A program made the translations under genes and the position numbers. Below the pieces are notes generated by a model that made no database searches, was not told the DNA's origin, and was given only the letters and a program-made list of their open reading frames with translations. A DNA stretch of 64,000 nt from Rhabditoides inermis. Taxonomy: Eukaryota; Nematoda; Chromadorea; Rhabditida; Rhabditidae. Shown here in pieces: positions 26,709 to 61,734 of the stretch (position 1 is the stretch's first letter; each line of letters begins with the position of its first letter). The DNA lies in the NCBI GenBank assembly GCA_963966185.1, contig CAWZYM010000293.1:1090001-1154000 (forward strand). Reading direction: 5' to 3'.

Positions 26709-31462
<4,754 letters not shown>

Positions 31463-31469: not shown

Positions 31470-32630
31470 GAACATCGGGTTCATCGGGTATCCCTCATTG
31501 TCACTTCACGGTCACGAATTATCCGCTGTTGGTCCGACAGAGAAGCAAGTTATGCAAACTCGGTTTTTTTTTTGAAGAAAGGCTATGAAAAGAAAGGGAA
31601 AAGTGTTACGATCACACTGTGAATTTTTTCATGAATTCAAACTCTGCTTCATTTGATTTGCGAATGACCATCACTTCTTTAAAATCAGATATCGAAAAGA
31701 ACAAATAGCGTGATCGAGGAATCTCGACTAACTGAAAACGCGACGGAATGCGATTAAATGACTTAAAAGTGAGCGGCGCCGAGTAAACCGGGGAAATACC
31801 CTATAATGAATGATAGTAGAAACAAGGAAATTATTTCGAAAGTGAAGTGAATTTCACATGATCGCAAATATTCCCACCAACAAACATCTAACATCATACT
31901 ATCTAACGCCGTAGCGTATAAATCGTGAATTAACGGAAACTTGATGTTAATTTAGTAGGAATGTAATATTATGGCGTTGTTAAAAAATAACGAGTGAGCA
32001 TGTAGTGAGAACACCTTCGAAAATACAGGGACACATTCAGAGGTAATCAAGCATTGCCTCACACATACATATGTTTCCAATTTGTAGTAGGAAGTATCAA
32101 AACGAGTCACAAACAAATAGTCGAAAATGAAATGATTTTGTCCGTCACAACAGGAAGTGCCAGGTACGGTACGCCTCGGAATGCCTACTAGACGATGTTC
32201 TGAGCTTGCATCACCCAGCCGCCCGCGGGGGAGCGTCCGGAGCAGGCTGCCAAGCGAACTGCACCGAGAGTTTCCATTGCCGAGTGGACACAGATCGAAG
32301 GCCAAATGTAGAGTGTCAGGTCTGAAAAGCCCATTGACGGTGACTAGAACAGACCACGAATAACAACGCTGGCCGATATGGAAATCGGAAGCTACTACGT
32401 TTTCAAGATCAGCTACTATGAAATAACTCACTGTAGTCTGATCACCACTCCAATGCCAATCCTGTTGAAACCACACAAATGAAAATGATACTGGGAAGGA
32501 GAACACATAACGAGACAAGAGAGACAACGAGTTGAGGTTGATGTTGATGTTAGCCAAAAATAACGATCACGCTTCCATTACCACTTCGACTTCTAATGAC
32601 ACACAGACACATACTTTCACACACACTCTC

Positions 32631-32668
<38 letters not shown>

Positions 32669-32730
32669 TCAGTAGTCAGTAGAACCCATTTGGGATAGAA
32701 TACCCTACCAAAGAGGGTTGATTGAATGTA
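31470..32730. other. Spacer of duplication copy 1, no gene resolved
   Basis: Shared with 36990-38590 and 43084-46500. A frame on the minus strand (ASDFHIGQRCYSWSVLVTVN onward, about 32440-32060) stays open in copy 1 but is shifted by a 2-base difference in copy 2, so it is not a conserved coding region. A (CA)n tract lies at 32637-32667. Confidence 0.45.
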
Positions 32731-32734
32731 TATC

Positions 32735-32841
32735 GCACTCCCGGATACCCCGGACGAGTGCTTTCCAAAAATACCAGTGTTTGACACTGAGCGAACTCAG
32801 GTCAGAACTCTAGGCGTACCTTGAGTACTGGGAAAAATTCC
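32735..32841 (-). ncRNA. SL2-type spliced-leader RNA gene, copy a
   Basis: 107 nt. The 22-nt leader starts GGAATTTTT and ends CCCAGTACTCAAG, followed by the donor GTACG. Its last 13 bases match C. elegans SL2 (CCCAGTTACTCAAG type) except for one base. CAGTACTC pairs with GAGTTCTG to put the donor in the first loop; CTGAG-TTCG-CTCAG forms the second hairpin; the Sm site GTATTTTTGG precedes the 3' hairpin GCACTC...GAGTGC. These are the diagnostic parts of an SL RNA, the snRNP that donates its leader to mRNAs, SL2 serving downstream genes of operons. A conserved block lies 42-65 bases upstream. Confidence 0.92.
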
Positions 32842-32882
32842 ACTGATTCTATCGCGCCTTCTCTCTTACCTCGCCACCGCAT

Positions 32883-32906
32883 GTGATACGCGCCGGGTTT
32901 GTGTCA
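32883..32906 (-). promoter_or_regulatory. Probable proximal sequence element of SL2 RNA copy a
   Basis: The block GTGATACGCGCCGGGTTTGT (plus-strand reading) plus GTCA is kept upstream of all five SL RNA copies while the sequence between it and the start varies. Position -42 to -65 suits a nematode PSE bound by SNAPc. Confidence 0.7.
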
Positions 32907-33051
32907 CGCATGAGAGAACGCGCGCTTTGTGAGAGAGCGGCAGAGAAGCGAGCGCGCCAGATGCAAGTGACCGAGACAAATTAAGATCACGAGTTTATTA
33001 TTACACACGCGAGTATAGGAGTCAGTACACAAGTAGTGTCTTCTAGTTGAC

Positions 33052-34527
33052 GTTTGTGTTAACCCTAGTCGCGCGCTAGAATCGGCAAAAGGCGACTGAA
33101 CGAAAGGTCCCTTAGAATCTTTGCGAGAACAATGTGATGCTGATAGATGTTATCAGGATGTTAGAAAATGGTTAAGTTTCGATTTTGGTAACTCTAGCTG
33201 TTGTAGGAAGCGAGATACGCGCGCGCGCCCCTGAGGGGAATCCCCCGTGTTCGGATGGTTTTCTAGGGGGGGGGGGGGTGGCGCGCACCGGCTGCCCCCA
33301 GCAGACAGGAGGTGCACAATCCGCACTGCATGTGGATTGCACTGATATCGTTTAGATCGCGTGCTCTGCCGTGCGCACAGTAGTGTTGTGGTTAGCGATT
33401 GCGCCCGTTGAGACACATGGTTCGAGTTCGGTTCCGGCTGGTGGGAAACCATTTGTAATATATGATTTTACATAGAAATGACATTGGAATTGTAAATTTT
33501 CCCATCAGCATTACCTAAACTCTTTTTTTGCAAATTTTATACAATTTTGGACTCAACAAGGTGAACTGTTGGATTTCTTTTAAAAAAATGTTTTGTGGTT
33601 CATGTTAATGTAGATGGATTTATATGAAATCCAACAAAAGTACATTCATTATCTTTTAAAAGGACTTCCGTAAGAGAAGAGTTTGTGTTACTCAACGTAA
33701 TGCAACAAAAGCTCATGCATTTTATCAATCGAAATAGTACACAAACCTGCTCCAAGAGTTCAATTGGATTCGCCCGCGCGGTGATTGGATTGTGCAATAA
33801 AAACCAGCACGGCTGCAGATAGGGTGAATGGGTTAGAATATATATATATATATATAATCGATCGGATACCGAAATCAATTTCCCGACATACAACATTTGC
33901 TCGCATTAGTTTTTATTGCAGAAAGAGCAGGTTTGTTTACTATTTCGATTGATAAAATGCATGAGCTTTTGTTGCATTACGTTGAGTAACACAAACTCTT
34001 CTCTTACGGAAGTCCTTTTAAAAGATAATACTCTCTTGGCTTAGGGCGTGAAGGCGTGTGAAGTATGGTCGAAGTTTGGGCGACATTTCAAATCTTATCT
34101 CAAAAGCTCCCTCAAGTGCACAACATATTGTCGACTCACGAAGCGCAGAGGAATGTGTCGGGTCTCCGGCGCGTACACATCAGGATGCTCATCATAGACG
34201 GCCAACTCGGTCGCGCACACATGCTGATTGTCCGAGATGTCAGCTGAAGGTGTCAAGGTGTGCTCAGTCACTTCGAAACAGCTTGTTCAAAAAGCCAACA
34301 CGTTGTTTGGACTTGTTTCGAAGGCGTTTCGAAGTCGAAGTATTGAAGGGAGTTTCGAAGAGCTCTTTCTCTATCGCCACTCGTTTCCAACTTCCTACTC
34401 ACAACTCCACAGGCAGAACTCGTATTTGTCGAAGTGGCGCGCGCCATTGGGATCCTTGTCGCAGCCAAGGTGCAGGAACGCGTAGCACTCCTCGCGCCGC
34501 TCGACTTTGAACCACTGAATACGTTCG

Positions 34528-34570
<43 letters not shown>

Positions 34571-34830
34571 ACTCTAATGGACGGCTTGGCGAGTTTGCAG
34601 GCGAAACTCTCCGGTGGTGTGGGGTGGTTGTTGAACTGACACAGCGCACCAGCCGCGCACGCTAGCAAGACGAGCAGCAGCATTGTGGAGTTTTTGATGG
34701 CACTGTGTACTCGCTGTGCTTTATATTCATTTCCGCATTATTCACGCACAGTTTACGGCCCCGCCGTCGGCTTGCGTGTGATTGTTGCGCGCGGATAGGA
34801 AGGAATTCGTAATGAGTCTCAACACTTATT
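33052..34830. repeat. Duplicated segment with Kunitz gene, copy 2
   Basis: Second copy of 16930-18720 in the same orientation, with the G12 tract at 33268-33280, the tRNA-like sequence at 33380-33440, the foldback at 33656-34021 and the Kunitz gene. It begins exactly where duplication copy 1 ends. Confidence 0.85.
34095..34683 (-). CDS. Kunitz-like secreted protein 2b (duplicate)
   Basis: Near-identical to the gene at 17889-18481: signal peptide MLLLVLLACAAGALC, ACKLAKPSIR, then EECYAFLHLGCDKDPNGARH and FCLWSCE. The short reading stops at 34395. The long spliced reading adds ISDNQHVCATELAVYDEHPD and stops at 34095. The intron has lost the AATAAA seen in copy 2a, which may favour the long form here. 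The first intron contains a (GA)n tract instead of the CT-rich spacer of 2a. Confidence 0.72.
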
Positions 34831-35373
34831 CTCAAGAATTCACACGTTTTAGTAGAGACAGTCTGTGAAATATGTCTTCAGATGGAAAATCCCCCTCCTC
34901 GAAACTATCAGTGCCTTCCGGACCTGTTGCTAGTCAGGAAAGATGCGGAGTATGCGTCTTGTGGATCCACTCACAAAAAAACGGCTAATACGCTTTACAT
35001 TAAAAAAAACCTTACCTTGTGGAGTTCAACGTACACAAACTTTAGAACTCAAAAATTAACTCGATGAAACGGACACAGACACTCTGCCGACTGATCGAAG
35101 CCAGTCGGACGACCACACTTTTGCTATCCGGGTATGGTGTCCTATCTGTTATCCTCATTGCCTAGTGTCGGTAAGCTCATCTACTTGTATGAGATGTTGT
35201 TGTTCTACTATCTGTTAACTCTTCAGGGGTCCACCGTGCTTGGGTTGTGTACCGTGTACCACGAGAGATCATGCGCGTTGTGAGAGAGTGGCAGAGAAGC
35301 GAGCGATATGGACGGAACACAAAACATCTGCACTGCATATTAGATGATACACGAAATATTTATACACATGTGC

Positions 35374-36989
35374 TTATGTTTGACTTTTTGAAGAAATATT
35401 ATTGTTGGATTTCGTGGATACTGGCTGTACGGTGATCTCAATCTTTCTCGTGCCACATCGACACAATCGTTTCACAGCCGAACGGAAGACGGTACTGTAA
35501 TACTCACATTGAAATCATTGTAGCACTATTATTAGTAGTATTGCACTGTAATTCATGCTACGTTACACATAATACAAATACGGCGGTTTCTCACAATAAT
35601 CACAATAACACAATAATGTTCTCTTCGAAACAGAACTCCATACATCGAAAATATCCGTTTCTCACCTAACATGATAATACAATAAGTATTTCAAAGTGTA
35701 AATGGTAGTGATGTGTAGTGAGAAGTACACCTGAACATACACACAGAATTAACCGTCGATATCACATGTGACTTACATCCACATAAAGTTGTGTTTTCCC
35801 GTCAGTTTGTAAAGAGATAATAATTGGAGGATAAGTGAGGAGTATACCAACCGCCAAATTCACAGCGATTAGAAAAATGGTCTTGTAGAGCGCTTTTCTT
35901 CTGTTTGCCTCTGAAAGCAAATTTTATTCAGAAATCGTGAGAGTATTGAAAGAGAGAACAAAAAAGACTACTATAGGTAGCAAATTTTATCAATCGTTCA
36001 CTGAATAGTAAGCCCCTTCGGGCGTTCAAAAATTGCGTACGCCACCCATGTTTCAGGGGACGCCGCGGGCAATTGGGAAAAGTTTTCAACCAGCAATAAA
36101 CGCACCTCGGCTAGGCCTCATTGGTCACGTTATCGCCTCTGCGCAAAGCTGACGAGGACAGAACGCGGCGCGCTGTTACGGGCCGGCCGCGGCAAACTCG
36201 CGCCGGGTTTACCGCGCACACAGTCGCGGGATAGATGAAAGAGCATACCGTGCGTCCTTATAGCGCACAGAGCGAACGCGTATATGAATAGGGAAGATAC
36301 TGCAGTGAATGTCATTCCAGAGAGCCAGACCAGACGGTGGAAGCCAGTAAACACTTGATTCACAGTGCACACAACACGCGATCTAGACATTACCTATTAC
36401 ATATCTGTCTCCTAATTTCACTCACTTTCCGCCTTCTATCCACGGCACTGGTACAAAGAAAGCGGCGGCGAATAGAGTGGGTACTGCCGCTTGAAATGTG
36501 AAGATCTGCCATTGGGTGAAGAGCTTATACTGTTTCGCGTATTTGATCGTAAACGTTCGATCGGCTGCCATCGATATCACATACGCGAGAGACATGGATC
36601 CGCAAAGAGCTGGGATGAACTGAAAGGTAAGGGTATAGCGAGAGAGAGAGAGAGAGAGAGGAGAGAGAGGAGAGAGAGAGAGAGATCCTACCTGAATCCA
36701 GGTGCACTGCCACTGCAACGGCTGCCATTGGGGGTTGATAATGAAGAGAACAGTGATAATGTTTCCGTATTGATGAACAAGATCGCATCCATGCATGAAG
36801 ATGCGGCAATAGACCATAGGAGTGTGAAGCTCTCTGATACAATGATACAAACACTGATGTCGTTTCCTACACTCACGTTTCTTTACAAGTAGACGTGAAG
36901 AAGATGGGGAAGCAGACAGACGAGACGATGGAGTTGGCTATGTATAGACCAACGGCCGGAAGAAGACCGTATTCGATCGTTTCAGTCAT
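35374..36989 (-). CDS. Seven-transmembrane receptor (serpentine/class A-like), copy 2
   Basis: Exons 36989-36877, 36833-36692, 36619-36426, 36382-36249, 35910-35777, 35730-35666 and 35494-35374; all donors, acceptors and phases fit, giving about 310 aa. Seven hydrophobic segments match copy 1, with MAADRTFTIKY at the end of TM3, where the DRY motif of class A receptors sits, VWLSGMTFTAVSSLFIYAF as TM5, ALYKTIFLIAVNLAVGILLT as TM6 and YFSLHITTIYTLKYLLYYHV as TM7. The basic tail TVFRSAVKRLCRCGTRK ends SNNNISSKSQT. Nematode-type chemoreceptor is the likeliest role. Copies 1 and 2 differ at many residues without stops, so both are probably functional. Confidence 0.78.
36007..36240 (-). mobile_element. 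Internally deleted R4/NeSL-type remnant
   Basis: Shares both ends with 28161-29190 (GCCCCTTCGGGCGTTCAAAA at the left, GCCGCGGGCAATTGGGAAAA to CGCGGGATAG at the right) but lacks the endonuclease frame. Lies in intron 4 of receptor copy 2. Confidence 0.65.
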
Positions 36990-38596
36990 ATCGCCTGAAC
37001 ATCGGGTTCATCGGGTATCCCTCATTGTCACTTCACGGTCGCGAATTATCCGCTGTCGGTCCGACAGACGAGCAAGTTATGCAAACTCGACTTTTTTTTG
37101 AAGAAAGACTATGAAAAGAAAGGAAAAAAGTGTTACGATCATACTGTGAATTTTTTTTATGAATTCAAACTCTGCTTCATTTGATTTGCGAATGACCATC
37201 ACTTCTTCAAAATCAGAACTCGAAAATAACAAATCGCGTGATCGAGGAATCTCGACTAACCGAAATCGCGACGGAATGCGAAATGACTTGAAACTGAGCG
37301 GCGCACAGTAAACCGGGGAAATACCCTATAATGAATGATAGTAGAAAAAGGTAATTATTTCGAAAGTGAAGTGAATTTCACATGACCGCAAATATTCCCA
37401 CAAACTAACATCTAACATCATGATTAACAGTGAAGCGAACAATATGTGAGAATGTATGTTCTTTTATAGTTAGGAAAACACAATTTAATCTCCCAGTCCA
37501 GTATCAGTCAACCTTGAATATTTTACTGTTGTGTGTGAGTGCTACCATTCTGAATGTTTTACAATTGAGTTGGTGGCGCCGGTTACTCGATTCGAAACAC
37601 CATTTCAAATTCCCGCATTCCGGTTTGATGCACAAACTTTGGTACGGTATGGCGTGGTGGAAGCAGAATCGTTTTGGCCCACAGTCTCGTTGCTTGAACA
37701 GGATCACTCAGCCGAAACTTTCCTACTTATACACTACTTATTTTTCACTTACTTTCTATCTACTTCCTACTGTCTAACGCCGTAGCGTATAAATCGTGAA
37801 TTAACGGAAACTTGATGGTAATTTAGTAGGAATGTAATATCATGGCGTTGTTGAAAAATAACGAGTGAGCAAGTAGTGAGAACACCTTCGAAAATACAGG
37901 GGCACATTCTGGGGGTAATTGAGCATTTCCTCACACATATGTTTTCAATTTGTTAACGGAAATAGCAAAATTAAGTGAATCGTAGTGAGTCACAAATAAA
38001 TAGTCGAAAATATAATGATTTTGTCCGTCACAACAGGAAGTGACAGGTACGGTACCCCTCGGAATGCCTACTAGACGATGTTCTGAGCTTGCATCACCCA
38101 GCCGCCTCGGCGGGGGAGCGTTCGGCGCAGGCTGCCAAGCGAACTCCCTCGAGAGTTTCCATTGCCGAGTGGACACAGATCGAAGGCCAAATGTAGAAAT
38201 TCAGGTCTGAAAAGCCCATTGACGTTGACTAGAACAGACCACGAATGACAACGCTGGCCGATATGGAAATCGGAAGCTACTACGTTTTCAAGATCAGCTA
38301 CTATGAAATAACTCACTGTAGTCTGATCACCACTCCAATGCCAATCCAGTTGAAAGCACACAAATGAAAATGATACTGGGAAGGAGAACACATAACATAA
38401 CGAGACAAGAGAGACAACGAGTTGAGGTTGATGTTGATGTTAGCCAAAAATAACGATCACGCTTCCATTACCACTTCGACTTCCAATGACACACAGACAC
38501 ATACTTTCACACAAACTCTCTCTTTCACACACACACACATTCAGTAGTCAGTAGAACCCACTTGGGATACCAAAGAGGGTTGATTGAATGTATATC

Positions 38597-38703
38597 GCAC
38601 TCCCGGATACCCCGGACGAGTGCTTTCCAAAAATACCAGTGTTTGACACTGAGCGAACTCAGGTCAGAACTCTAGGCGTACCTTGAGTACTGGGAAAAAT
38701 TCC
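38597..38703 (-). ncRNA. SL2-type spliced-leader RNA gene, copy b
   Basis: 107 nt, with the same leader, stems, Sm site and 3' hairpin as copy a. The upstream conserved block is at about 38746-38769. Confidence 0.92.
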
Positions 38704-38907
38704 ACCGATTCTATCGCGCCTTCTCTCTTACCCCGCCACCGCATGTGATACGCGCCGGGTTTGTGTCACGCATGAGAGAACGCGAGCGCGGTGAGAGAGC
38801 GGCAGAGAAGCGAGCGCGCCAGATGCAAGTGATCGAGACAAATAGAGATCACGAGTTTATTATTACACACGCGAGTATATGAGTCAGTACACGAGTGGGG
38901 TATTCTT

Positions 38908-39435
38908 CTAGTTGGCGAAGTCCTCGGCGGCTCCTCCGCAGAGCAGGAAGCACAGTCCCTTGACGTACATGGACGAGAGGAGAATGGCCAGCTGGTAGAT
39001 GTGCGTAGACTGATCCTGTGTCGACACCTGCTTGAACACGAACTGCAGGCACACTGCCAGAGACGCACACAGCAGCACCGACTGAAAGGAGGATACGGTG
39101 TACGGTTGTTTGTCTGATTCCGACAGCCTGCTTGGACGTACATTATGATGGTAATGTAAGGTTACGATACACGCACCATGAGGAAGTAGTTGAAGGTGAG
39201 GTTGCTGGAGAGGACAGCGATGACAAGAACGGTAGCGAGGGGATCGCCGGCAGACGAGCCGAGCCGAGCGGCGCGCGCGTTACCCACATTCTCAGCAACA
39301 GTCTGCAACGGTTCTGTTACCGTATCTTACAGTGTAATTACAGTAATCGACCGTACGTAGTGAGCGACGGCGGCGATGAGAAGAACGAAACAGGCGACGG
39401 GGCGGCAGAAGCAGTGCGACTGGACATGAATCTAG
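38908..39435 (-). CDS. Small multi-pass membrane protein (5' end missing)
   Basis: Three exons: about 39430-39361 (CFCRPVACFVLLIAAVAHY), 39303-39180 (TVAENVGNARAARLGSSAGD, then LATVLVIAVLSSNLTFNYFL) and 39081-38908 (SVLLCASLAVCLQFVFKQVS, then YQLAILLSSMYVKGLCFLLC and GGAAEDFAN stop). Three or four membrane helices. No start codon in the first readable exon, which is preceded by an in-frame stop, so an upstream exon is needed; the recombinase gene occupies that side. The AATAAA on the minus strand at about 38859 is conserved in all three copies. Family not recognised. Confidence 0.6.
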
Positions 39436-39540
39436 GCGCTCCTCTCTTTCCTTGGCACATGCGCACATGTTGCCAGTACGGAGCCGTCACACCCCGTTCA
39501 ATTCAGACAATGAATTGTTTTTTTGAGCGACCGCGTAAAA

Positions 39541-40712
39541 ATGGTCCCACAGCGGACGGCGCACGCGACGCGACCGCGCCGCACAATGGTAGTCTCCGGC
39601 TACGTTTCCAAACGTTTCTCATTTTCTACGCGGTTTTCTTCAACCTTTATATCCATCCCACCCACCCCAGGGAGCCGCCTCCCCAGCAAGATATTTTATC
39701 CTCACCCTTGCAGGGCAGGTCGCGCACTCTGTTCGGCGCCTGGCGGGCCACGGAGTCCGTCTGGGCATCCCCGACTCCATCTGGGAATGGGCGCACCAGA
39801 ACGCCAAGGCGCCCGCCACCATCAAGGCATATCGAGCGGCCTGGGCCAGCATAGGTACGGAGGTAACATGAGGGGGGATAGCATAGTCTCTCTCTTCAGT
39901 TCGCTTCGCCGAGCAGGGGGACCTCGACCCGGCCGACGGAGGGACACTGGCACTGTTCATTGCCAAGAAGGTCGCTACCAGGGTGGGTCTGAAGACCATT
40001 CCCACTACGCGAGCGGCCTTCTGCTGGGCCACAGGCAAGAGAGCCGAGGTGAGTCACGCTCGCTAGATTTCAACTGGGAAAACGTTTCTGGTTGTAGGAC
40101 ACGGCAGACGCTACGGTCATCGGCAAACTGGCGGCCGCTGCAGGTCGGAGCGCCGCGCCCGTCCAGTCAAGCGTCCCCATCCGGGAGACCGACGTCCAGA
40201 AGATCGCCCAGCTCGCCATGGAGGGAGGCAGCGTGGCCGTCCGAAGATCTGCGGCGGCCATGTGTCTCGCGTTCTACGCCCTGCTGAGATCGCAGGAGCT
40301 GCTCGACCTCAACGTCAGTGACGTGGCCGCATCGGGCGACGCGTGGAGCATCTCGATCCGCGGATCGAAGACCGACCAGAAGAAGCTCGGAAGGAAGGTG
40401 TTCGTGAAACCGACGGGAGCCGCTCGGAATCTCCTCAAACAGTTTCTGAGCTCCAAGTCATCCGACGGCCCTCTGTTCAGCACCGTGTCGGGAGGACGGA
40501 TGACCCGGTCCCAGTACTCCAAGGACGCCAAGAACCTCGCCTCTCAAGTGGGCGCGGCCGGTATCTCGACGCACAGCATGCGGGCGGGAGGAGCGACAGC
40601 ACTGGCGGAGGGTGGAGCAGACCTCGGAGTGATTCTGCGAAGAGGCCGCTGGGCATCCGCCAAATGCCTCCCCCGCTATATACAAGATACGCCGGCCTCG
40701 CAGGGAATCTAG
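39541..40712 (+). CDS. Intron-containing tyrosine recombinase (Crypton/DIRS-type)
   Basis: Proposed exons 39541-39588, 39671-39854, 39898-40048 and 40097-40712, about 330 aa; the first junction is inferred. An N-terminal SAM-like DNA-binding part (ATIKAYRAAWASI) leads to a catalytic domain with all expected residues: Arg in YALLRSQELLDL, Lys in GSKTDQKK, HSMR, Trp in RRGRW and the nucleophile Tyr in PRYI. Such recombinases drive DIRS retrotransposons and Crypton DNA transposons. There is no reverse transcriptase or RNase H frame within several kb, and three short introns interrupt the gene, which suits a Crypton-like or domesticated enzyme. Higher GC than neighbours suggests a different origin. 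AATAAA at about 40865. Confidence 0.8.
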
Positions 40713-41265
40713 GATACGAGTCGAGCAGGAGGTCTCCCAGTATGCGTATCACGTGAACTGCTCTTGCCATATCATATCATCACGTTTATTGTATCTCTCG
40801 TGGTTGCTTGTTGTTGTTTGAACCAAGGTTCGTTGTTGAGTTTTGTTTATTTCGTTGGCATCGTCAATAAACACGATTTTGTTTGCTCGTTGAGTCTTCC
40901 TTTCGCCCTTTCACCAACTTCTCGTCTCGTCGCGGAGGCGCCGCCGGACAAGCCGTCCCAAGAAAGAAGAAAGAAGAAACAAGATCGTCTACTAATTGTT
41001 CATACACACACTCATAACCGATAAACCGTGCCGTCCTTGTGTGTCCATTTTTCGCTAGGGAGCTCAAAATTGGTTATGTCGTAGCGTAGCGGAGACATAA
41101 TTGCCCTATTTGGTGAGTTACATTACCGTTTACTTTTTTACTTGATCACTTTAGCTACCCGATTCGCTCAAGGTAGCGCGGATCCCATCTTCCTCCGGGA
41201 AGTTCGGTCTCGCGCGGACGTTGCCCATGCGGTGCCGTTGCCCATATTGAACTGTCTCGAAAAGG

Positions 41266-41690
41266 TATAGTCGGATTGGATCCTATATGCCATCCGTGAA
41301 ATTTCACGTGTTGTGCAGTTTTGTGCAAGAAGGAATCGAACCCGAGGGCAGCAGCAACCGATTGTGCACTGGCGGCGCGCACAGGCACTGCGCCATTAGC
41401 ACTTGTGCTGAGAAATTATCGAATTACGAAGATACACTCGCTCGTTATATCTCATCACAGTGTACTGAAGATTCCAGTGGAGCTATATATAGCCGCTTCG
41501 TTCGCACTCTAATACACTGCCCCGATGGCGCAGTGGTAGTGCGCGCCGCCAGCGCACAATCGTTGCGAGCTGTCCACGGGTTCGATTCCTTCTAAAGAAA
41601 CCGTTTTGGATATTTGATGACCTACACGTTGTGTTGCACAAAACTGCACAACACGTGAAATGTCACGGATGGCATATAGGATCCAAACCG
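41266..41690. mobile_element. Foldback with opposed tRNA-like sequences
   Basis: GTATAGTCGGATTGGATCCT ... GTGAAATTTCACGTGTTGTG at the left pairs with the inverse at the right end (about 41630-41690). tRNA-like segments with a GGGTTCGATTCCTTCT B box at 41521-41600 (+) and its inverted counterpart at 41330-41400 (-). Same architecture as 27337-28157 but different sequence. No ORF. Confidence 0.75.
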
Positions 41691-41699
41691 ACTATACGG

Positions 41700-42187
41700 A
41701 TAGAATCTATCAAGCGGGTAGGTGGTCTCTCGAGTGTCCGTTTGACGTGACGTGGATACCACTCGTCCATCGTCCCTCCTGATGATGTGCCCGGCCCATC
41801 GATGTTTGCCGTGGCGCATGTAGCGCAGCGGATCCTTCAGCTTTGACCGTCTTCTCATCTCCTCGCTACTAATGCCCTTGTCTCTTTGTCTTCGCAGCGT
41901 GTAGACCATCGGCTGCCTCTCCATAGCTCGATGTGCGGTGCGAATCCGTCCAAGATTTTTCTCCGTGTACGCCCAGGTCTCGGTGGCGTAGCAGAGAGCA
42001 GGCAGAACCGAGGGAGATTAAAGAGATTAGCCTTCTGGTCCTGATCTTTCAGAGTAGCGAGCGTCTCCTTTCTGCTACAGAATGCAGCCCAGCCAGTGCG
42101 TGTCCTTCTGCTTATCTCCTCCTCGAGCGTGTTGGTGCCGTTGATGAGCCTGCCGAGATAGACATAGCTTTCCACAGACTCCACTAG
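41700..42187 (-). pseudogene. RTE-type reverse transcriptase C-terminal fragment
   Basis: Reads SYVYLGRLINGTNTLEEEIS then RRTRTGWAAF in one frame, and HRAMERQPMVYTL ... DPLRYMRHGKHRWAGHIIRR in another, matching the end of RTE-clade polymerase proteins (YLG..I....L..EI.RR...GWAAF; RWAGH..R). A frameshift joins the two, so it is dead. Truncated at both ends. Confidence 0.75.
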
Positions 42188-42210
42188 CTCGACGTACTAA
42201 AGAGAATGTT

Positions 42211-42317
42211 GCACTCCCGGATACCCCGGACCAGTGCGTTCCAAAAATACCAGTGTTTGACACTGAGCGAACTCAGGTCAGAACTCTAGGCGTACCTTGA
42301 GTACTGGGAAATAATCC
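42211..42317 (-). ncRNA. SL2-type spliced-leader RNA gene, copy c (variant leader)
   Basis: 107 nt. The leader starts GGATTATTT and ends CCCAGTACTCAAG with the donor GTACG, so only the first half of the leader differs from copies a, b and d. Sm site and three stems are present; one stem base differs (CACTGG in place of CACTCG). Upstream block at about 42359-42382. Confidence 0.88.
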
Positions 42318-42386
42318 AACAAATCTGTCGCGCGCTCTCCTAAACCCCGCCACTGTGCGTGATACGCGCCGGGTTTGCGTCATCTA

Positions 42387-42681
42387 AGCCAGTAAACACT
42401 TGATTCACAGTACACACAACACGCGATCTAGACATTACCTATTACATATCTGTCTCCTAATTTCACTCACTTTCCGCCTTCTATCCACGGCACTGGTACA
42501 AAGAAAGCGGCGGCGAATAGAGTGGGCACTGCCGCTTGGAATGTGAAGATCTGCCATTGGGTGAAGAGCTTATACTGTTTCGCGTATTTGATCGTAAACG
42601 TTCGATCGGCTGCCATCGATATCACATACGCGAGAGACATGGATCCGCAAAGAGCTGGGATGAACTGAAAGGTAAGGGTAT

Positions 42682-42731
<50 letters not shown>

Positions 42732-43083
42732 AAGAGAGAGAGGAGAGAGAGAAGAGAGAGAGAGAGAGAGATCCTACCTGAATCCAGGTGCACTGCCACT
42801 GCAACGGCTGCCATTCGGGGTTGAAAATGAAGAAAACAGTGATAATGTTTCCGTATTGATGAACAAGATCGCATCCATGCATGAAGACGCGGCAATAGAC
42901 TGTAGGAGTGTGAAGCTCTCTGATACTTACAATGATAAACACTGATGTCGTTTCCTACACTTACGTTTCTCTACAAGTAGACGTGAAGAAGATGGGAAAG
43001 CAAACAGACGAGACGATGGAATTGGAATTGGCTATGTATAGACCAACGGCCGGAAGAAGACCGTATTCGATCGTTTCAGTCAT
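42387..43083 (-). pseudogene. Seven-transmembrane receptor, copy 3 (truncated)
   Basis: Exons 1-3 and the first part of exon 4 match copy 2. Exon 1 contains a 6-base in-frame duplication (TTGGAATTGG). Exon 4 is cut after VNQVFTG at about 42387 by the junction with the SL2 copy c region, so TM5-TM7 are missing. The readable exons still have good splice sites. Confidence 0.8.
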
Positions 43084-43228
43084 ATCGCCTGAACATCGAG
43101 TTCATCGGGTATCCCTCATTGTCACTTCACGGTCGCGAATTATCCGCTGTCGGTCCGACAGACGAGCAAGTTATGCAAACTCGGTTTTTTTTTGAAGAAA
43201 GACTATGAAAAGAAAGGAAAAAGTGTTA

Positions 43229-44699
43229 TATTTATATTTATATTTATTGTCGTGTTACATAAACAAAGACATTGCAAAAACGGGAAAGAAAATAGAATAC
43301 GACATTGGTATGTGTGAAAGGGAGGAGACATAACATGAACGATAGATAACATGATATAATACAAAAGGAAAGGAAAAACATGGATGTGCTCAAAAACGAC
43401 GGATTTTAGACAGTGTCATTAATTCTAGGGAAGATAGGTGTTGTTTAAAAGAGGTGTGGTCACGGATATGTACAACGTCAGAAGGTAAGGCATTCCAGGT
43501 ACTAAAAGCTCTACTAATAAATGTGCTTGTTTGGCCATTGTTATCGAATGAAGGCACAATTCTAAATTCGTTTGAGTTTCTGGATCTTGTTGGAATAATA
43601 GTGAAAAGCCCTTGATAATCCAAAATTGTTTTAGAGTGAATGAACTTATGTATATAGGTGATGTCATTCAAAAAACGGCGATATTCGAGTGTTTCAAGAT
43701 TGAGTAGCTCTAGGCGTTGAGGATAGGAAAGGGTGCGACCGATACGCTGACACACGCGACGAGTGAAATAACGCTGTACATTTTCAATGAGGTTCACAGA
43801 AAATACATCCTGCGGATTCCATAGTTCAGTGCAGTATTCCAATTTGCACCTAAAATAAGTTTTGTAGGCAGTTACCAAGATGTTAAGATCCCTGGTTTTA
43901 TAGGTTCTGAAAAAATCATTTATGGCGAAAAGAGTTTGTTGATTAATGTGGGTGTAGTGATCTCTGAATAAGAGTGATCCGCTCATGAGAACACCCAAAT
44001 CTTTAGCGATTTCAACAGGGACTAAGGCACACCCTTGTACAAAGTAAGTGTGCTTAGGGTTTTTCTTACCTATGTGTAGAATTTGAGTTTTCTCCGTGGA
44101 AATTTGTAGCCCCCAAGAGGATGCCCAATCAATTACGATATTTATAGCTAGTTGGAATATTGACGCAGCAGTTGTATCACAAGGGTCAAACGGGTAGTAC
44201 ACTTTCAAGTCATCTGCATAGAGCGCGCATTTAACATTATCAGATAAATTATCAGAGATGTTGTCAATGAATACGTTAAAAAGTAGTGGGCCTAAACAGG
44301 AACCCTGAGGAACTCCACAGTTAACAGTACTTGGTTTTGATTGCTTGCCACCAACCATAACGGACTGTTTTCTGTCCTTGAGAAACTCTTTAATCCAACC
44401 AAGAGTATTTCCGCGGATGCCCATGGAATCTAATTTTTTAAACAGAAGTGAATGGTTTATGGTGTCGAAAGCTTTCTTGAAATCAAAGTATATGCAGTCA
44501 TCGACTAAACCTGCCGAAACATATTTACACCAATGGCTATGGCATTCAATGAGTTGGGCATTTGTAGATCTATTTTTGCGAAAACCAAATTGTTTAGGGG
44601 AAAGAACGTTATTTTTCTCAAAGAAATCTGTTATTTGTTTCACGCACAGGCGTTCAAAAACTTTGGAAATGCTGCAAGTTAGAGATATAGGCCTGTAAA
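43229..44699 (-). mobile_element. CR1/jockey-like non-LTR retrotransposon, 5'-truncated
   Basis: The reverse transcriptase frame is open from 44699 to 43390. Motifs in order: PISLTCSISKVFERLC, FGFRKNRSTNAQLI, FDFKKAFDTINHS (catalytic Asp), GVPQGSCLGPLLFN, LYADDLKVYY (YADD catalytic pair) and KTQILHIGKK, then the C-terminal part to LSKIRRF. The endonuclease half is missing. The 3' end is a TAAATA-type tail (43229-43249). TGTTA flanks both sides (43224-43228, 44700-44704), and the empty site is seen in copy 2. The open frame continues upstream into host DNA, which is coincidental. Intact RT suggests a recent insertion. Confidence 0.85.
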
Positions 44700-44988
44700 T
44701 GTTACGATCATACTGTGACTTTTTTATGAATTCAAACTCTGCTTCATTTGATTTGCGAATGACCATCACTTAAAATCAGAACTCGAAAAGAACAAATCGC
44801 GTGATCGAGGAATCTCGACTAACCGAAAGCGCGACGGAATGCGAAATGACTTGAAACTGAGCGGCGCACAGTAAACCGGGGAAATACCCTATAATGAATG
44901 ATAGTAGAAAAAGGTAATTATTTCGAAAGTGAAGTGAATTTCACATGACCGCAAATATTCCCACAAACAAACATCTAACATCATGATT

Positions 44989-45355
44989 AATAATAATAAT
45001 TTATACGGGTTTTTAACAACTCGTGCAAGATAAAGACATATGTACAAACATGACAAAATAGGAAAAAAATACAACAAAACGAATCGGAAAGCGCAGCAGA
45101 CGGGGCCATTGTGTTTAGACAGCTACTAGGAAGGAGGTGAGAAAAGCTAGTGACACGGACATTGAATACATGTTCCCGGGCGCTGACTCGGAATCGAGGT
45201 CGGACTACCCGTATTTCATGACCGCGTAAACCCCGGGAAGGGCGTAGGTCAAACAACCCTTCCCGGTCAATGGCGACGAATCCGGCCAGGATCTTGTAGA
45301 ACATCACGAGGTCCTTGACGTGCCGCCGTTGTTGGAGTGAGTGGAAGCCCAGAAT
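44989..45355 (-). mobile_element. 3' end of a second CR1/jockey-like element
   Basis: On the minus strand SLQQRRHVKDLVMFYKILAG then GLFDLRPSRGLRGHEIRVVR resembles the C-terminal end of CR1-type reverse transcriptases, followed by untranslated sequence and an (ATT)n tail. Absent from copies 1 and 2 at this point. Confidence 0.6.
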
Positions 45356-46419
45356 GAAGCGAACAATATGTGAGAATGTATGTACTTTTAGAGTTAGGAA
45401 AACACATTTTAATCTCCCAGTCCAGTATCAGTCAACCTTGAATATTTTACTGTTGTGTGTGAGTGCTACCTTTCTGAATGTTTTACAATTGAGTTGGTGG
45501 CGCCGGTTACTCGATTCAAATTCCCGCATCCCGGTTTGATGCACAAACTTTGGTACGGTATGGCGTGGTGGAAGCAGAATCGTTTTGGCCCACAGCCTCG
45601 TTGCTTGAACAGGATCACCCAGCCGAAACTTTCCTACTTATACACTACCTATTTTTCACTTACTTTCTATCTACTTCCTACTGTCTAACGCCGTAGCGTA
45701 TAAATCGTGAATTAACGGAAACTTGATGGTAATTTAGTAGGAATGTAATATCATGGCGTTGTAGAACAATAACGAGTGAGCAAGTAGTGAGAACACCTTC
45801 GCGAAAATACAAGGCACATTCTGGGGGTAATTGAGCATTTCCTCACACATATGTTTACAATTTGTTAACGGAAATAGCAAAATAAGTGAGTCGTAGTGAG
45901 TCACAAATAAATAGTCGAAAATAAAATGATTTTGTCCGTCACAACAGGAAGTGCCAGGTACGGTACGCCTCGGAATGCCTACTAGACGATGTTCTGAGCT
46001 TGCATCACCCAGCCGCCTCGGCGGGGGAGCGTTCGGCGAAGGCTGCCAAGCGAACTGCCCCGAGAGTTGCCATTGTGGTCACACAATGAAGGTCAAATGT
46101 AGAGATTTTGGTCTGAAAAGCCCAGTGACGTTGACTAGAACAAACCACGAATATCAACGCTGGTCAATATGGAAATCGGAAGCTACTACGTTTTCAAGAT
46201 CAGCTACTATGAAATAACTCACTGTAGTCTGATCACCACTCCAATGCCAATCCAGTTGAAACCACACAAATGAAAATGATACTGGGAAGGAGAACACATA
46301 ACATAACGAGACAAGAGAGACAACGAGTTGAGGTTGATGTTGATGTTAGCCAAAAATAACGATCACGCTTCCATTACCACTTCGACTTCTAATGACACAC
46401 AGACACATACTTTCACACA

Positions 46420-46454
<35 letters not shown>

Positions 46455-46502
46455 ACACTTGGGATAAATACCCTACCAAAGAGGGTCGATTGAATGTATA
46501 TC

Positions 46503-46609
46503 GCACTCCCGGATACCCCGGACGAGTGCTTTCCAAAAATACCAGTGATTGACACTGAGCGAACTCAGGTCAGAACTCTAGGCGTACCTTGAGTACTGGG
46601 AAAAATTCC
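46503..46609 (-). ncRNA. SL2-type spliced-leader RNA gene, copy d
   Basis: 107 nt, leader identical to copies a and b (GGAATTTTT ... CCCAGTACTCAAG), with one substitution in the second stem region (CAATCAC for CAAACAC). Sm site, 3' hairpin and upstream block (about 46651-46674) kept. Confidence 0.92.
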
Positions 46610-46809
46610 ACCGATGCTATCGCGCCTTCTCTCTTACCCCGCCATTGCATGTGATACGCGCCGGGTTTGTGTCACGCATGAGAGAACGCGCGCTTTGTGA
46701 GAGAGCGGCAGAGAAGCGAGCGCGTCAGATGCAAGTGACCGAGACACATTGAGATCACGAGTTTATTAATACACACGCGAGTATAGGAGTCAGTACACGA
46801 GTAGTGTCT

Positions 46810-47170
46810 TCTAGTTGGCGAAGTCCTCGGCGGCTCCTCCGCATAGCAGGAAGCACAGTCCCTTAACGTACATGGACGAGAGAAGAATGGCCAGCTGGTA
46901 GATGTGCGTAGACTGCTCCTGTGCCGACACCTGCTTGAACACAAACTGCAGACACACAACCAGAGACGCGCACAGCAGCACCGACTGAAAGGAGGATACG
47001 GTGTACGGTTGTTTGTCTGATTCCGACAGCCTGCTTGGACATACAGTAGCGAGGGGAGCGCCGGCAGACGACCGAGCAGAGCGTTACCCACCTTCTCCGC
47101 CACAGTCTGCAACGGTACTGTATTGTTACTCGTACTATAACTACAGTAATCTAATCGACCGTAAGTGGTA
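46810..47170 (-). pseudogene. Small multi-pass membrane protein, damaged copy
   Basis: The last exon (SVLLCASL..., YQLAILLSSMYVKGLCFLLC, AEDFAN stop at 46810) is intact. The preceding exon is cut after GRLPALPSLL: about 65 bases encoding the second helix and its donor are deleted relative to copy 2, and the frame runs into former intron. Confidence 0.65.
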
Positions 47171-47459
47171 AACGACGGCGGCGATAAGGGGAGCGAAGCA
47201 GGCGAGGGGAAGCAGACATCAATGTAGCGCGAGTGGATCACGAATCCAGGCGCTGCAGGCGCGCCCCTCTCCTGTTCCCCTCTCCTGTTCCCCTCCACTT
47301 GCCCCTCTGTTTACTAGTGTTATTCTGCCATTCTGGCACCAGTTTCTGTTGCCAGTCCGGCACTGCCACACCCAGTCCCAATCAGGCAATAAATTAGCCT
47401 ATAGGGTGATTTACTGTAGAATTACCTTACTAGGCACTACCTTACATCAAGAGAATGTT

Positions 47460-47565
47460 GCACTCCCGGATACCCGGACGAGTGCTTTCCAAAAATACCA
47501 GTGTTTGACACTGAGCGAACTCAGGTCAGAACTCTAGGCGTACCTTGAGTACTGGGATATAATCC
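47460..47565 (-). ncRNA. SL2-type spliced-leader RNA gene, copy e (variant leader)
   Basis: 106 nt; the leader starts GGATTATAT and ends CCCAGTACTCAAG, donor GTACG. The 3' hairpin loop has one C fewer. The upstream block reads GTGAAACGCGCCGGGTTTGT (about 47607-47630). Not embedded in a full copy of the large duplication, so it may be an older or dispersed family member. Confidence 0.88.
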
Positions 47566-47639
47566 GACAATGCTGTCGCGACCTGTCTCTTACCCCGACA
47601 CTGTGCGTGAAACGCGCCGGGTTTGTGTCATCCAAGCGA

Positions 47640-55316: not shown

Positions 55317-57202
55317 TCCCACCTAACAATGTCATTGTGCGTACTATTTTCCCTTCACCTTCTGAACGAATAGAAGTGTATGCGTCGATCATTCCAGACA
55401 ACGCGTTTAGATGAGCACTGGCCTTGACTGGGACACTTCTTCCCCACCGTGGCTGCTGGTGCGGGAGGTGCGCGAGCTACTCGACCAGATCGACACGCAT
55501 GATGAGGACGAGGTGGGATGAAAAAGAGAAAGAGAGAGAGAGAGAGAGTTTCTCTTTTCAGTTACGTGTCGCTGTCTCTCGCCTGCCACACGCGTGCCGA
55601 GACTACGACGAGATCGTTGACCATCTGAGGAAGTAATTCAATTATCTGAAATTTTTAGAAAAAAACGTTGTAATTAACTTGTTATGACAGAACCTTGTCA
55701 TGATGTATGTTCAGCTACAACATTGACAACACCGACGCCGTGCCGGATGGGGACGATGCGTGGGCGGATGTGATCGTGTCACAGGTGGACGAGGTAAGGG
55801 AATAATTCGATCTGTTTCGGTTCCTTAAGATTACGGTAAAAGAATAATTTGACCTGCTTCAATCCCGTAGGATTACGGTAGGAGAATAAATTGATCTGCT
55901 TCGTTCCTTTAGAATTACGATAAGAGAATTATTTGATCTACTTTGTTTCCTTAGAATTACGGTTAGTAAGAAAATAATTTGACTTGCTTCGTTCCCTTAG
56001 AATTACGGTAGGAAAATAATTTGACCTGCTTCGTTTCCTTAGAATTACAGTAGGAGAATGATTTGGCCTGCTTCGTTCCTTTAGTTTAGAATTACGGTAG
56101 GAGACCAATTTGACCTGCTTCGTTCCCTTAGGATTACGGTGGTAGAATAATTTGAGTTGCTTTGATTCCTTAGGATTACGGTAGGAGAATAATTTGATCT
56201 GCTTCGTTCCCTTAGACTTACGGTAAGAGAATAATTTGATCTACTTTGTTTCCTTAGAATTACGGTAGGAAAATAATTTGACCTGTCTCGTTCCCTTAAG
56301 ATTACGGTAGTAGAATAATTTGAGTTGCTTTGATCCCTTAGGATTACGGTAGGAGAATAATTCGATCTGCTTCGTTCCCTTAGAATTACGGTAAGAAAAT
56401 AATTTGATCTGATTCGTTCCCTTAGATTTACGGTAAGATAATAATTTGACCTACTTCGTTCCCTTATAATTACGGTAAGAGATTACTTCGACCTGCTTCG
56501 ATCCCTTAGGATTACGGTAGGAGAATAATTTGACCTGCATTTCAGTTCATCTCGACCGCAGTAGCCGCGCGTGTGCACGAGTTCACGGAGTGCTACGAGA
56601 CGCTGCTCCAGCAGAGGGACAGGGTCGACAGGGTCGCCCGGCTCGTTCACGATCAATCGCATGTGAGCTCAAACGTTCCATCTATCCATTTGTTGAGTCC
56701 ACCTCCCCATTGCAGCTGCTTCCCCGTCTGACTGCCGTGTCTGCCCGCGCGACTCGCTTCCTGTTGAATGACGACTGTGTGCCGGTGGCGAGCTGCGAGC
56801 ATCGAATGAGAGAGGAGGACGGGTGGATGTGGGAAGAAGTGGCGGTGAGTTACTTGATAGACAGAATTCACAGAGTTACTTGGTAGACGAGTCAATTTAT
56901 TCTGGAAAATGATATCAATTGGCCGTTAGACAGCGAGTCTCAAATCTCATTATTTGATTGTAAGTATCAAGCAGCTGCTTCGTGAAACGAAATGATACTG
57001 ACTTCCATTATCTGGAACCTCACCTTCCTCATTCTAGCACGTGCGTCCCGACTGGGCCCTGCCCTGTGAGACGGGGGTGGACGAGTTGGAGGCGGCAGAG
57101 GCGGCGGCCAAGCAACGCGCACTGGCTGCCATCCAAGAGAGCAGGCTCAGGGACAGCAGATCAACGAGCATCGATTGTGAATGTGTCGTAGACCTTGTTT
57201 GA
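53424..57202 (+). CDS. 15-exon gene, unknown function (about 450 aa)
   Basis: Starts MESGDCCAPLNE at 53424, shortly after a GTGCAG acceptor that could be a trans-splice site. Exons (approximate starts) 53424, 53521, 53620, 53779, 53948, 54077, 54253, 54834, 55151, 55410, 55561, 55714, 56545, 56716 and 57039; nearly all introns are phase 0 and the frame stays open to TGA at 57202. Features: a basic helix-like stretch DAERELRRQRRRERRQ (exon 6), YHAEPAECYWLDPDTRWITE (exon 7), RMPRDPNLVYHNGSRIHLII (exon 8), acidic exons 10 and 12, and a C-terminal Ala/Glu-rich helix (ELEAAEAAAKQRALAAIQES). No signal peptide or membrane segment, so probably cytosolic or nuclear. I do not recognise a domain. Introns contain two large minisatellites. 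Poly(A) signal AATAAA at about 57511. Last two exons are tandemly duplicated downstream. Confidence 0.72.
54420..54800. repeat. GAGAGGGA minisatellite in intron 7
   Basis: About 30 units of a 10-base purine motif (GAGAGAGGGA with variants), entirely on one strand. Strong purine/pyrimidine asymmetry could allow triplex (H-DNA) folding. Confidence 0.85.
55800..56540. repeat. 43-bp minisatellite in intron 12
   Basis: About 17 imperfect tandem units of TTACGGTAGGAGAATAATTT then GACCTGCTTCGTTCCCTTAG. The unit contains both a GGTA(A/G)G donor-like and a CCCTTAG acceptor-like sequence. The array fills almost the whole intron between exons 12 and 13. Confidence 0.9.
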
Positions 57203-57576
57203 ACTCATTTGAAGTATACGGGTCATGAAGTGTTGTGTTGTTTGTGCTTTGTACGTGCTCGATTTTCTTGAGTTAGTCACACTATGAGTACCGGACAACC
57301 TCGCCTTCATCAAACACTGTGCTTTGGACTTTGGAATGCCTGACTTGAAGATGCGTGATGTGTTTGTGACTCTCAGTAAACTTCTTACGTGTATTTGATA
57401 GACATGCTATAGATTTTCTTACTTGTTATTATTTATTGAATGCCACTGCTATATATCTTCTTACTTGTTATTATTTATTGAATGCCTTTTGTTTGTTTGC
57501 GAGCTGTTAATAAATACTGTAATGTGGACAATCGTATTAGATTTGTCTTATTTGAATGAGTGGTATCGTACTATAT

Positions 57577-59401
57577 TGGATGTAGGACGTTCCCTCCACT
57601 TTTGCAAGGTCCTCCACTTTTGCATGGTCCTCCACTAGCATGAACGATTCCTCCACCGACCATGAACGTTCTCTCCACTTTGCTAGGACGTTCCCTCCAC
57701 TTTAAATTTAGGCGTTTCTTATCTAATGTGTGACGTTTTTTTTGACGTTCTAATACATTATTTAGCCATAAACAATGAACTTTAATAATGCCTAGAATAA
57801 TGCCTATTCTTATTCTTCTTCTTTTCCCCGCGGCGTGCGGTCGGGTCCTCATTTTACCCCACCGCCGCCGAATGTTCGGTCATCGACAAGAATACTTCCC
57901 GAGAAACCAGTGAGGCGGCGGGAAGTACCCTCATGTGAAAGCAGCTATGGCGCGAGGAGATACTCATTGGCATGGAAGCAAAGGAAAACCCGGAGCTCAA
58001 CACTCTACACGTCAAGAATGGTACTCTAATGCTCCAGGAATGAATATCGATAAAGTATCGTCTTCCCACCACTAACCTCGTCAGCCTACTTTTTTTCCCC
58101 GGCGTTTTTCCCCGGCGAAATAGTTAAACATCCCCGGCGCATATCTAGCATCTTAGGCACTACTGTATGCTTCATATCATTATGATTCTGTTGTCATATT
58201 CAGATATAACGATTCCGGATAAACGATTGATTGATTAAAAATGCCTAGAAGATTTTTGAGACCCCGTTTGCTCATAGTTAGTGATTCACATCTCACAAAT
58301 CTCTCTCCTTCCACAAGGAGCCATGGCTCATGCGCGAGCCAACCAGAGAGACGGTATTGTATTCGCGATGTCGCTACTTGTAAACAGATATGAAGATATC
58401 ATATTTACTAGAAAAAGAGTTGAATATTCATCTGCCCGTTTGTCTGGAAGATATCAGAACTGAGTGTGAGTAGTGGAAGAATGAAGTGGAAGCATTCACA
58501 CCTCGTAAACCAGAATCAAAGTACTTATTGTTAAAACTAATCTTACACCATTGGTGACAATCTGTTCACTAGTAAATATGTAGAAAATTCCAAAGTAATG
58601 TTTTGATCATATGATCCGATATCCGTATAGAACGCCGATTCATGTCTGGCAGTCTGGCAGTGATTCCTTAGCATATAGCAATCCGCGAAAGATAACTACA
58701 TACGGGCCGTGGGCCATAGGCTTGTTTTTTTCTTTGTTGATGAAGTAGAATTTAAAATTTGTGAACCCACAGAGCTGTACTATAGCTCCGTAGAATACCG
58801 TAAAACATTATCAGAGAATACAGTCATTTATGGAAATTATGTGTTAATTGAATTTGCTGAAAAGTTGAGTTGGAGAATACAGTTGCTGCAAGAAAGTGCG
58901 GTAATGTTAGTTTCTATTCCGAAGCCCATACGACGCTCGAAAAGATTCACAAAACGCTTCACATGTTGTCGTACTGCGGCAGCGGGATTTGGCTAACATG
59001 TTAAAAATACCGATGTAGATGCTTTACAAACTAGCATATTATTACATGTTTTGTACGAAGAGCTGACTTCATTAGTTATTGATAAGTTATGCTGAATGAT
59101 GTGTTCCATCGTGGTAGGATGTATGTCTTCAGGTTGGCTCGTGCATGAATCTTTGTGGTAGGAGAGAGATGAGTGGTAACTATGACTATGAGCAATATGT
59201 TAAAAGTTTCTAGGCATTATTACGAGCATTATTTATGGCTTAATAATGTGTTAGAACGTTCAAACGTCACACATTAGATGTGAAACGCCTAAATTTAAAG
59301 TGGAGGGAACGTTCATGGTCGGTGGAGGAATCGTTCATGCTAGTGAAGGAATCGTCCTTTTCACTTATTCTAAGAAATGTGGAGGGAACGTCCTACATCC
59401 A
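57577..59401. mobile_element. 1.8-kb palindromic transposon, 6-bp TSD
   Basis: Ends TGGATGTAGGACGTTCCCTC and the reverse complement GAGGGAACGTCCTACATCCA. Terminal inverted repeats extend about 230 bases, with internal repeats of TCCTCCACTTTTGCA and GAACGTT. CTATAT flanks both ends (57571-57576, 59402-59407). The interior has short frames (about 95 aa at 58709-58996) with no recognisable transposase motif, so probably non-autonomous. A truncated relative is at 9115-9537. Confidence 0.75.
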
Positions 59402-59409
59402 CTATATTT

Positions 59410-61360: not shown

Positions 61361-61734
61361 ACTCATTTGAAGTATACGGGTCATGAAGTGTTGTGTTGTT
61401 TGTGCTTTGTACGTGCTCGATTTTCTTGAGTTAGTCACACTATGAGTACCGGACAACCTCGCCTTCATCAAACACTGTGCTTTGGACTTTGGAATGCCTG
61501 ACTTGAAGATGCGTGATGTGTTTGTGACTCTCAGTAAACTTCTTACGTGTATTTGATAGACATGCTATAGATTTTCTTACTTGTTATTATTTATTGAATG
61601 CCACTGCTATATATCTTCTTACTTGTTATTATTTATTGAATGCCTTTTGTTTGTTTGCGAGCTGTTAATAAATACTGTAATGTGGACAATCGTATTAGAT
61701 TTGTCTTATTTGAATGAGTGGTATCGTACTATAT

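Follow-up and report, generated by a model that had tools for sequence, protein, structure and literature searches.

In Caenorhabditis elegans, the spliced leader (SL) SL2 is given to the downstream genes of operons. The arms at the tip of SL2 leaders are usually GGT and ACC, and GGU also stands in the consensus of the Rfam SL2 model RF00199, which represents the SL2 RNA of C. elegans and clade V. We examined a window of 64,000 nucleotides (nt) from Rhabditoides inermis (G000:C293:1090001-1154000; genome of 172.6 Mb in 599 contigs), in which five RNA units on the minus strand very probably belong to a dispersed family of SL2 RNA genes, each an independent transcription unit of the small nuclear RNA (snRNA) type whose leader probably includes a hairpin. 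These units share with RF00199 a leader of about 22 nt ending in CAAG, a GU splice donor within stem I, a stem II, the Sm site AUUUUUGG and a stem III with a GGGGU-UCC loop.

Large families of this kind have been described. PMC7986045 gives 187 SL1 and 16 SL2 genes for Pristionchus pacificus, later revised to at least 619 and 41, and R. inermis resembles that species in that its SL2 family is large, comes with several leader variants and stands beside a far larger SL1 family. One coding primer for P. pacificus mbd-2 (PMC2000911) finds no match in the genome even when 3 mismatches are allowed, an argument, if not a decisive one, against P. pacificus as the source of this DNA. Because SL2 families of comparable size have been published, for instance in P. 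pacificus (PMC7986045), the cluster itself is ordinary. It consists of SL2 genes of an already known type, and what deserves specialist attention is the coordinated change of paired positions at the leader tip. PMC9984361 describes a cap-adjacent hairpin at the tip of every C. elegans leader and calls leader stem-loops widespread, with letters that are not conserved between distant species and a function that is posed there as a question.

The sequence-only reading had placed five units of 106-107 nt on the minus strand, starting at 32735, 38597, 42211, 46503 and 47460. A covariance model built from the family itself recovers all five at these starts, with ends at 32841, 38703, 42317, 46609 and 47565 and lengths of 107, 107, 107, 107 and 106 nt. 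The covariance search that had been proposed as a check yields RF00199 scores of 41.4-47.6 bits for all five, where the gathering cut-off is 41. The genes at 32735..32841, 38597..38703 and 46503..46609 carry the leader GGAATTTTTCCCAGTACTCAAG and score 42.7, 42.7 and 41.4 bits. The gene at 42211..42317, with leader GGATTATTTCCCAGTACTCAAG, a T-T innermost hairpin pair and one stem III mismatch, scores 41.4 bits, and the gene at 47460..47565, with leader GGATTATATCCCAGTACTCAAG, scores 47.6 bits. At E-values up to 1, the own-family model finds exactly these five units in the 64 kb, at 132.5, 132.5, 123.1, 131.3 and 126.2 bits in order of position; it was trained partly on the same units, and its scores are therefore not independent evidence, as the Rfam scores are. 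The proposed identity as SL2-type RNA genes is thus supported, since all five reach the Rfam gathering score and all features of an SL RNA that sequence alone can reveal are present. The leader core CCCAGTACTCAAG has five exact matches in the window, each inside an SL2 unit; with two mismatches allowed it has six, compared with a mean of 1.0 and a maximum of 4 in 100 shuffles.

Every leader starts with GG, contains a CCCAG core and ends in AAG after about 22 nt, directly before the GU of the donor. The idea of one shared 22-nt leader holds for the 3' part, which is identical in all five units, but not for the tip, where nt 4, 6 and 8 vary: three units have GGAATTTTTCC, 42211 has GGATTATTTCC and 47460 has GGATTATATCC. 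The GTACG donor, the CTGAG-TTCG-CTCAG hairpin (stem II) and the Sm site ATTTTTGG between stems II and III are the same throughout, as had been reported. A GCACTC/GAGTGC 3' hairpin had also been ascribed to every unit and is present in four; unit 42211 reads GCACTG, which creates a G-G mismatch. Written as RNA, the series GUACG, CUGAG-UUCG-CUCAG, AUUUUUGG and GCACUC...GAGUGC accordingly occurs in four of the five. The stem III loop is GGGGUAUCC in four window units, and unit 47460 lacks one G from the run in this loop.

The donor does lie within stem I, but it is not looped out cleanly, as had been suggested. In the best-fitting stem I, which has 10 pairs and is shifted relative to the Rfam drawing, the G of the donor and the last two leader bases are paired, leaving UACG as the loop. 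Stem I as drawn in Rfam, where nt 7-10 of the model leader pair with the intron, is incompletely formed both at its outer pairs (46 of 88 alignment cells) and at its inner ones (65 of 109), versus 209 of 219 cells for the shifted stem. RF00199 membership is kept since the score of the whole model reaches the cut-off, and the mismatch in stem I is a difference from the drawn structure. Other differences from RF00199 are a one-base gap in the window leaders after CAGU of the consensus, the GGU of that consensus as opposed to GGA in most intact units here, and outer stem I pairs that are mostly broken in the GGA units of this genome.

Structural conservation was assessed with 22 of the 30 distinct transcripts, which also served for the own-family model; within the leader, alignment A2 has L041 displaced by a single column. 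On the 22 rows, 97.2% of 678 cells are paired (stem I 95.4%, stem II 100%, stem III 97.7%), compared with a shuffled mean of 94.3, and none of 500 shuffles reaches the observed value. Changes on both sides of a pair number 16, against 5.6 in shuffles and again with none of 500 reaching the observation; 13 of these lie in the leader hairpin, and such changes are also present in stems II and III. The number of further pair types is matched by 8 of 500 shuffles.

Leader nt 1-11 can fold beside the cap into a hairpin of the form GGNN-NNN-NNCC, with arms GGTT/AACC, GGAT/ATCC or GGAA/TTCC. The 31 intact units counted for this hairpin carry 12 types of nt 1-11: GGTTTTTAACC, GGTTTATAACC, GGTTTAAAACC, GGTTTTCAACC, GGATTATATCC, GGATTACATCC, GGATTATTTCC, GGATTACTTCC, GGATTTTCTCC, GGAATTTTTCC, GGAATATTTCC and GGAATACTTCC. 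The counts include C229 and leave out C75, which came to light later, as well as L034, L037, L042, L062 and L074; the last five were dropped on the grounds of their Sm site, donor or truncation, a judgement made with their leaders already in view. Of the 31 units, 19 start with GGA, the usual GGT/ACC being replaced by GGA/TCC. Pair 3:9 is formed in every unit (A-T in 19, T-A in 12) and pair 4:8 in 27 (T-A in 20, A-T in 7), with T-T in two units and T-C in two others. Together, 58 of 62 cells are paired, where shuffling of the 3' letters gives a mean of 33.8 and none of 20,000 shuffles reaches 58. Counting each of the 12 types once, 21 of 24 cells are paired (shuffle mean 12.4, observed value reached in 3 of 20,000). 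Three states are found inside the window itself: paired GGAT/ATCC in 47460, unpaired GGAT/TTCC in 42211, and paired GGAA/TTCC in the other three units.

It is likely, going by this pattern, that SL2 leader nt 1-11 are selected for shape, namely for a hairpin beside the cap, GGNN-NNN-NNCC, in which the letters of the arms are free to change provided that they pair. We read the paired changes as probable selection on the 5' shape of the messenger RNA (mRNA) because a cap-adjacent hairpin is already known from PMC9984361; a role in the SL ribonucleoprotein or a cause at the DNA level are other ways in which they might arise. The hairpins presented in PMC9984361 are alike in that the 5' end of the leader is self-complementary beside the cap; they differ in belonging to C. 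elegans leaders, whereas here the compensatory change is among paralogues of one genome. Among the papers listed by a literature search on leader-hairpin covariation, PMC9984361 alone mentioned a spliced leader, and the statement extends to those papers only.

The paired changes at nt 3/9 and 4/8 might instead stem from common descent of the units, from gene conversion or from a palindrome that matters at the DNA level close to the start site, an explanation we regard as possible, if doubtful. Independent changes are few. Pair 4:8 offers three well-supported independent contrasts, of which a mean of 2.8 compensate when pairings are drawn at random and none goes the opposite way, so that sign tests give p 0.25-0.5 and 0.05 is out of reach; pair 3:9 offers a single supported contrast. 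The tree behind these contrasts includes three degraded rows, and of its 28 inner branches, 8 are well supported and 13 open. Against common descent stands a simulation on the units' own tree, with positions independent and as many changes per site as observed, which gives a mean of 31.4 paired cells (standard deviation 7.8) and reaches 58 in none of 20,000 runs; the simulation permits only A and T, although C stands at nt 8 in one leader type. When the partners are slid, just 0-36 of 62 cells pair, and the hairpin is lost in degraded units. A hand count that adds the degraded L034, L037 and L042 finds 61 of 68 cells paired. A palindrome at the DNA level is compatible with all of these points. 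Pairing between leader and intron, as in the outer part of the Rfam structure, accounts for the leaders less well than the hairpin does: in GGA units, 17 of 48 cells are paired, versus 45 of 48 for the hairpin, and in GGT units, 29 of 40 versus 39 of 40.

Predicted stability bears on the same question. For leaders folded alone, the hairpin is the best structure in 13 of 13 intact leaders and 0 of 2 degraded ones, and the innermost mismatch found in three leader types costs little, because three pairs enclosing a loop of five bases can still form. Several values weigh against selection for this shape, together with the scarce contrasts and the 61 of 68 count above. The hairpin is weak, gaining 1.1-2.0 kcal/mol in the lone leader; with 60 random nt appended, its probability is 0.24-0.60; and leaders shuffled at nt 3-9 average 0.40, compared with 0.39-0.95 for real leaders. 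Of the 30 distinct transcripts, 18 contain the hairpin in the best fold of the whole RNA, among them 17 of the 27 intact ones, and its probability is approximately 0.3 in the whole RNA of the GGAATTTTTCC units of the window.

SL2-type genes are found at no fewer than 37 places in the genome, of which 32 are apparently intact and 5 degraded. A 30-nt body pattern yields 35 of them, C229 was picked up by its leader and C75 by its stem II; the total of 37 is a lower bound. Among the degraded places, L034 and L037 carry the same RNA with a damaged Sm site, L042 is altered at the donor and at its first base, L062 has lost its 3' end and L074 is a remnant. C229 (L041), counted as intact, has the Sm site AATTTTTGT and letter changes in both stem II, where it keeps all 7 pairs, and stem III, where it keeps 9 of 10. 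C75 (L075) also differs in the letters of these two stems, with all pairs of the structure kept except one, and its leader tip, GGTTTATAACC, pairs. A candidate at C550:17115 was rejected as an SL2 gene, having no match at E-values up to 1, and a genome search with CTCAAGGTACG-N12-GACC, a pattern whose real spacing is 11, returned noise (166 matches, compared with 244 in the control). The sequence CCCAGTATCTCAAG is the leader core of other SL2 units in the genome. Leader cores also appear in print: CCCAGTACTCAAG in at least two papers, titled on TRIM14 and liver cancer and on Radopholus similis reference genes, and CCCAGTATCTCAAG in at least four. On the 340-kb contig C294, the same three SL2 units occur twice at near-equal spacing (G000:C294, approximately 127.7-134.1 kb and 320.5-326.9 kb; L033-L038), which is either a recent large duplication or a retained haplotype.

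Upstream of each window unit lies the element AAACCCGGCGC, on the minus strand and 59 nt from the RNA start: 32890..32900 for the start at 32841, 38752..38762 for 38703, 42366..42376 for 42317, 46658..46668 for 46609 and 47614..47624 for 47565. We take a proximal sequence element (PSE) about 60 nt upstream to be a feature of snRNA-type promoters, and all five units agree with this; from its position and its sharing among genes, AAACCCGGCGC is presumably such an element. The exact pattern has six matches in the 64 kb, all 59-60 nt upstream of an RNA gene, these being the five SL2 genes and an intact U4 spliceosomal RNA gene. Across the genome, all 35 places whose leader can be read have the element 59-60 nt from the start, and a hand reading puts the element of C75, with its first base changed, 60 nt upstream.

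The intact U4 gene is at 36012..36150 on the minus strand (RF00015, 115.7 bits), with AAACCCGGCGC at 36210, 60 nt upstream. Another U4 copy, at 28986..29114 on the same strand (RF00015, 80.4 bits, and alignment), matches in its 5' part and not in its 3' part; its element, AAACCTGGTGC at 29174, is also 60 nt upstream and differs from AAACCCGGCGC by two bases. This copy is a probable pseudogene. The two U4 matches interleave with the SL2 genes on one strand.

Units 32735, 38597 and 46503 lie within a segment of about 1.2 kb that is repeated at 88-93% identity (31886-33052, 37758-38917 and 45669-46820), the latter two copies being part of a longer match at 93%, and a U4-bearing segment is also duplicated (29020-29592 and 36056-36627). 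The flanks of 42211 and 47460 differ from those of the other three. Taken with their flanks, these two units are 63-65% like the first unit over 300 nt, ungapped, while the RNAs are nearly identical, and the alignment of 42211 with 32735 spans 172 bp, starting where stem III ends and stopping slightly beyond the promoter element. In 16 chosen units, conservation is limited to the promoter element and the RNA and falls to background level outside. Because the conserved block ends at the promoter element and stem III, where duplication alone would not stop, we favor selection on a short transcription unit. The cluster illustrates how SL2 genes multiply alongside U4 snRNA genes, with promoter element and RNA nearly fixed. 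What precedes the intact U4 gene (36341-37135) is found again directly upstream of unit 42211 (42386-43228), so that SL2 42211 with its promoter occupies the place that U4 has in the other repeat copy.

These repeats invite a different account, in which the units are mostly silent snRNA-like copies spread by segmental duplication and only a few genes elsewhere are in use. Three of the five units do sit in the repeated 1.2-kb segment, one U4 copy is damaged at its 3' end, 5 of the 37 SL2 places are degraded and unit 42211 has its stem III mismatch. We nevertheless consider this account improbable, as the 3' part of the leader, the donor, stem II and the Sm site are identical in all five units even though two differ in their flanks, promoter element and spacing are intact in all five, and the leader changes preserve pairing. 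Still less probable, to a degree that makes it hardly credible, is that the units encode another Sm-class RNA, such as an SL1-type RNA, SmY or a new snRNA. Their Rfam SL2 scores do lie near the cut-off, and SL1 genes in this genome (L022 and L030) have a resembling promoter element, AAACCCGG. However, the SL1 leader GGTTTAATTACCCAAGTTTGAG is absent from the window units, which do not belong to the SL1 RNA family RF00198; the SL1 genes form a separate set, and three SL1 loci that were tried score 11.7-13.2 bits with the own-family model. The stem III loop CGGGGTATCCG is one letter off the SL2 consensus cggGGuuUCCG, and the stem III of SL1 RNAs here is different.

Some observations count against the assignment of the five units to an SL2 family. 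Their Rfam scores barely exceed the cut-off, two of them have small changes in stem III, and stem I, with no both-sides change on the 22 rows, is defined by its pairing alone. The divergent C229 keeps 5 of 10 stem I pairs. Among 19 SL2-bearing loci scanned with RF00199, six have no match at the gathering score, namely L004, L005, L008, L031 and L072, all of GGA type, and L041. The GGA units of L018 and L040 do match, at 42.0-49.3 bits. One likely reason for GGA units falling near or below the cut-off is that the outer stem I pairs of the Rfam structure are broken in them, and as the Rfam model scores several such units near or under its cut-off, genes of this type may escape annotation.

If the units are SL2 genes, the PSE-like element 59-60 nt upstream would direct synthesis of an RNA of about 107 nt, comprising the 22-nt leader, the donor in stem I, stem II, the Sm site and stem III. 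By established nematode biology, it would be transcribed like snRNA genes, acquire a trimethylguanosine cap, bind Sm proteins and associate with CstF-64. The leader would then be donated to mRNAs, chiefly those of downstream operon genes, through the 3'-end machinery; we infer this joining by analogy with C. elegans SL2. A leader stem-loop reportedly works with the nematode eIF4E/G complex, to go by the title of Wallace et al. 2010. The three interchangeable pair states in one genome are evolutionary evidence that pairing matters, and the many natural compensatory variants, together with the intermediate in unit 42211, could be used to test hairpin function in spliced-leader mRNAs.

The SL1 genes of R. 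inermis are the larger set, with 106 matches to a leader-plus-donor pattern, in which at least one place is counted twice. At L030 (G000:C109), a tandem unit of 1442 bp carries genes for SL1 RNA, U2 snRNA and 5S ribosomal RNA. Variant SL1 leaders, GGTTGACACACCCAAGTTTGAG, are found at G000:C204, C205, C340 and C360. Among the matches listed, SL1 variants keep GGT/ACC except at C283 and in one of those at C360, which have GCC and hence a G-T pair.

Additional repeats and mobile elements occur in the window. A reverse transcriptase frame (43390-44769; PF00078, 3.5e-39) lies in the third copy of the duplicated segment, and a tyrosine recombinase domain of the phage integrase family (40218-40712; PF00589, 5.9e-16) is probably part of a mobile element. 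A repeat of about 1.8 kb with 92-93% identity occupies 16933-18708 and 33052-34892, its second copy starting at the end of the duplicated SL2 segment. At 27879-27948, within a long inverted repeat, there is a transfer RNA (tRNA) match of 29.8 bits, for which the Rfam cut-off is 29; ARAGORN calls no tRNA there, and the match is perhaps a tRNA-derived repeat. Finally, 56726-59840 and 60884-64000 form a direct repeat of at least 3.1 kb that is 99.9% identical, has a spacing of 4158 bp and runs off the end of the window; either it was duplicated very recently or the assembly is at fault here.

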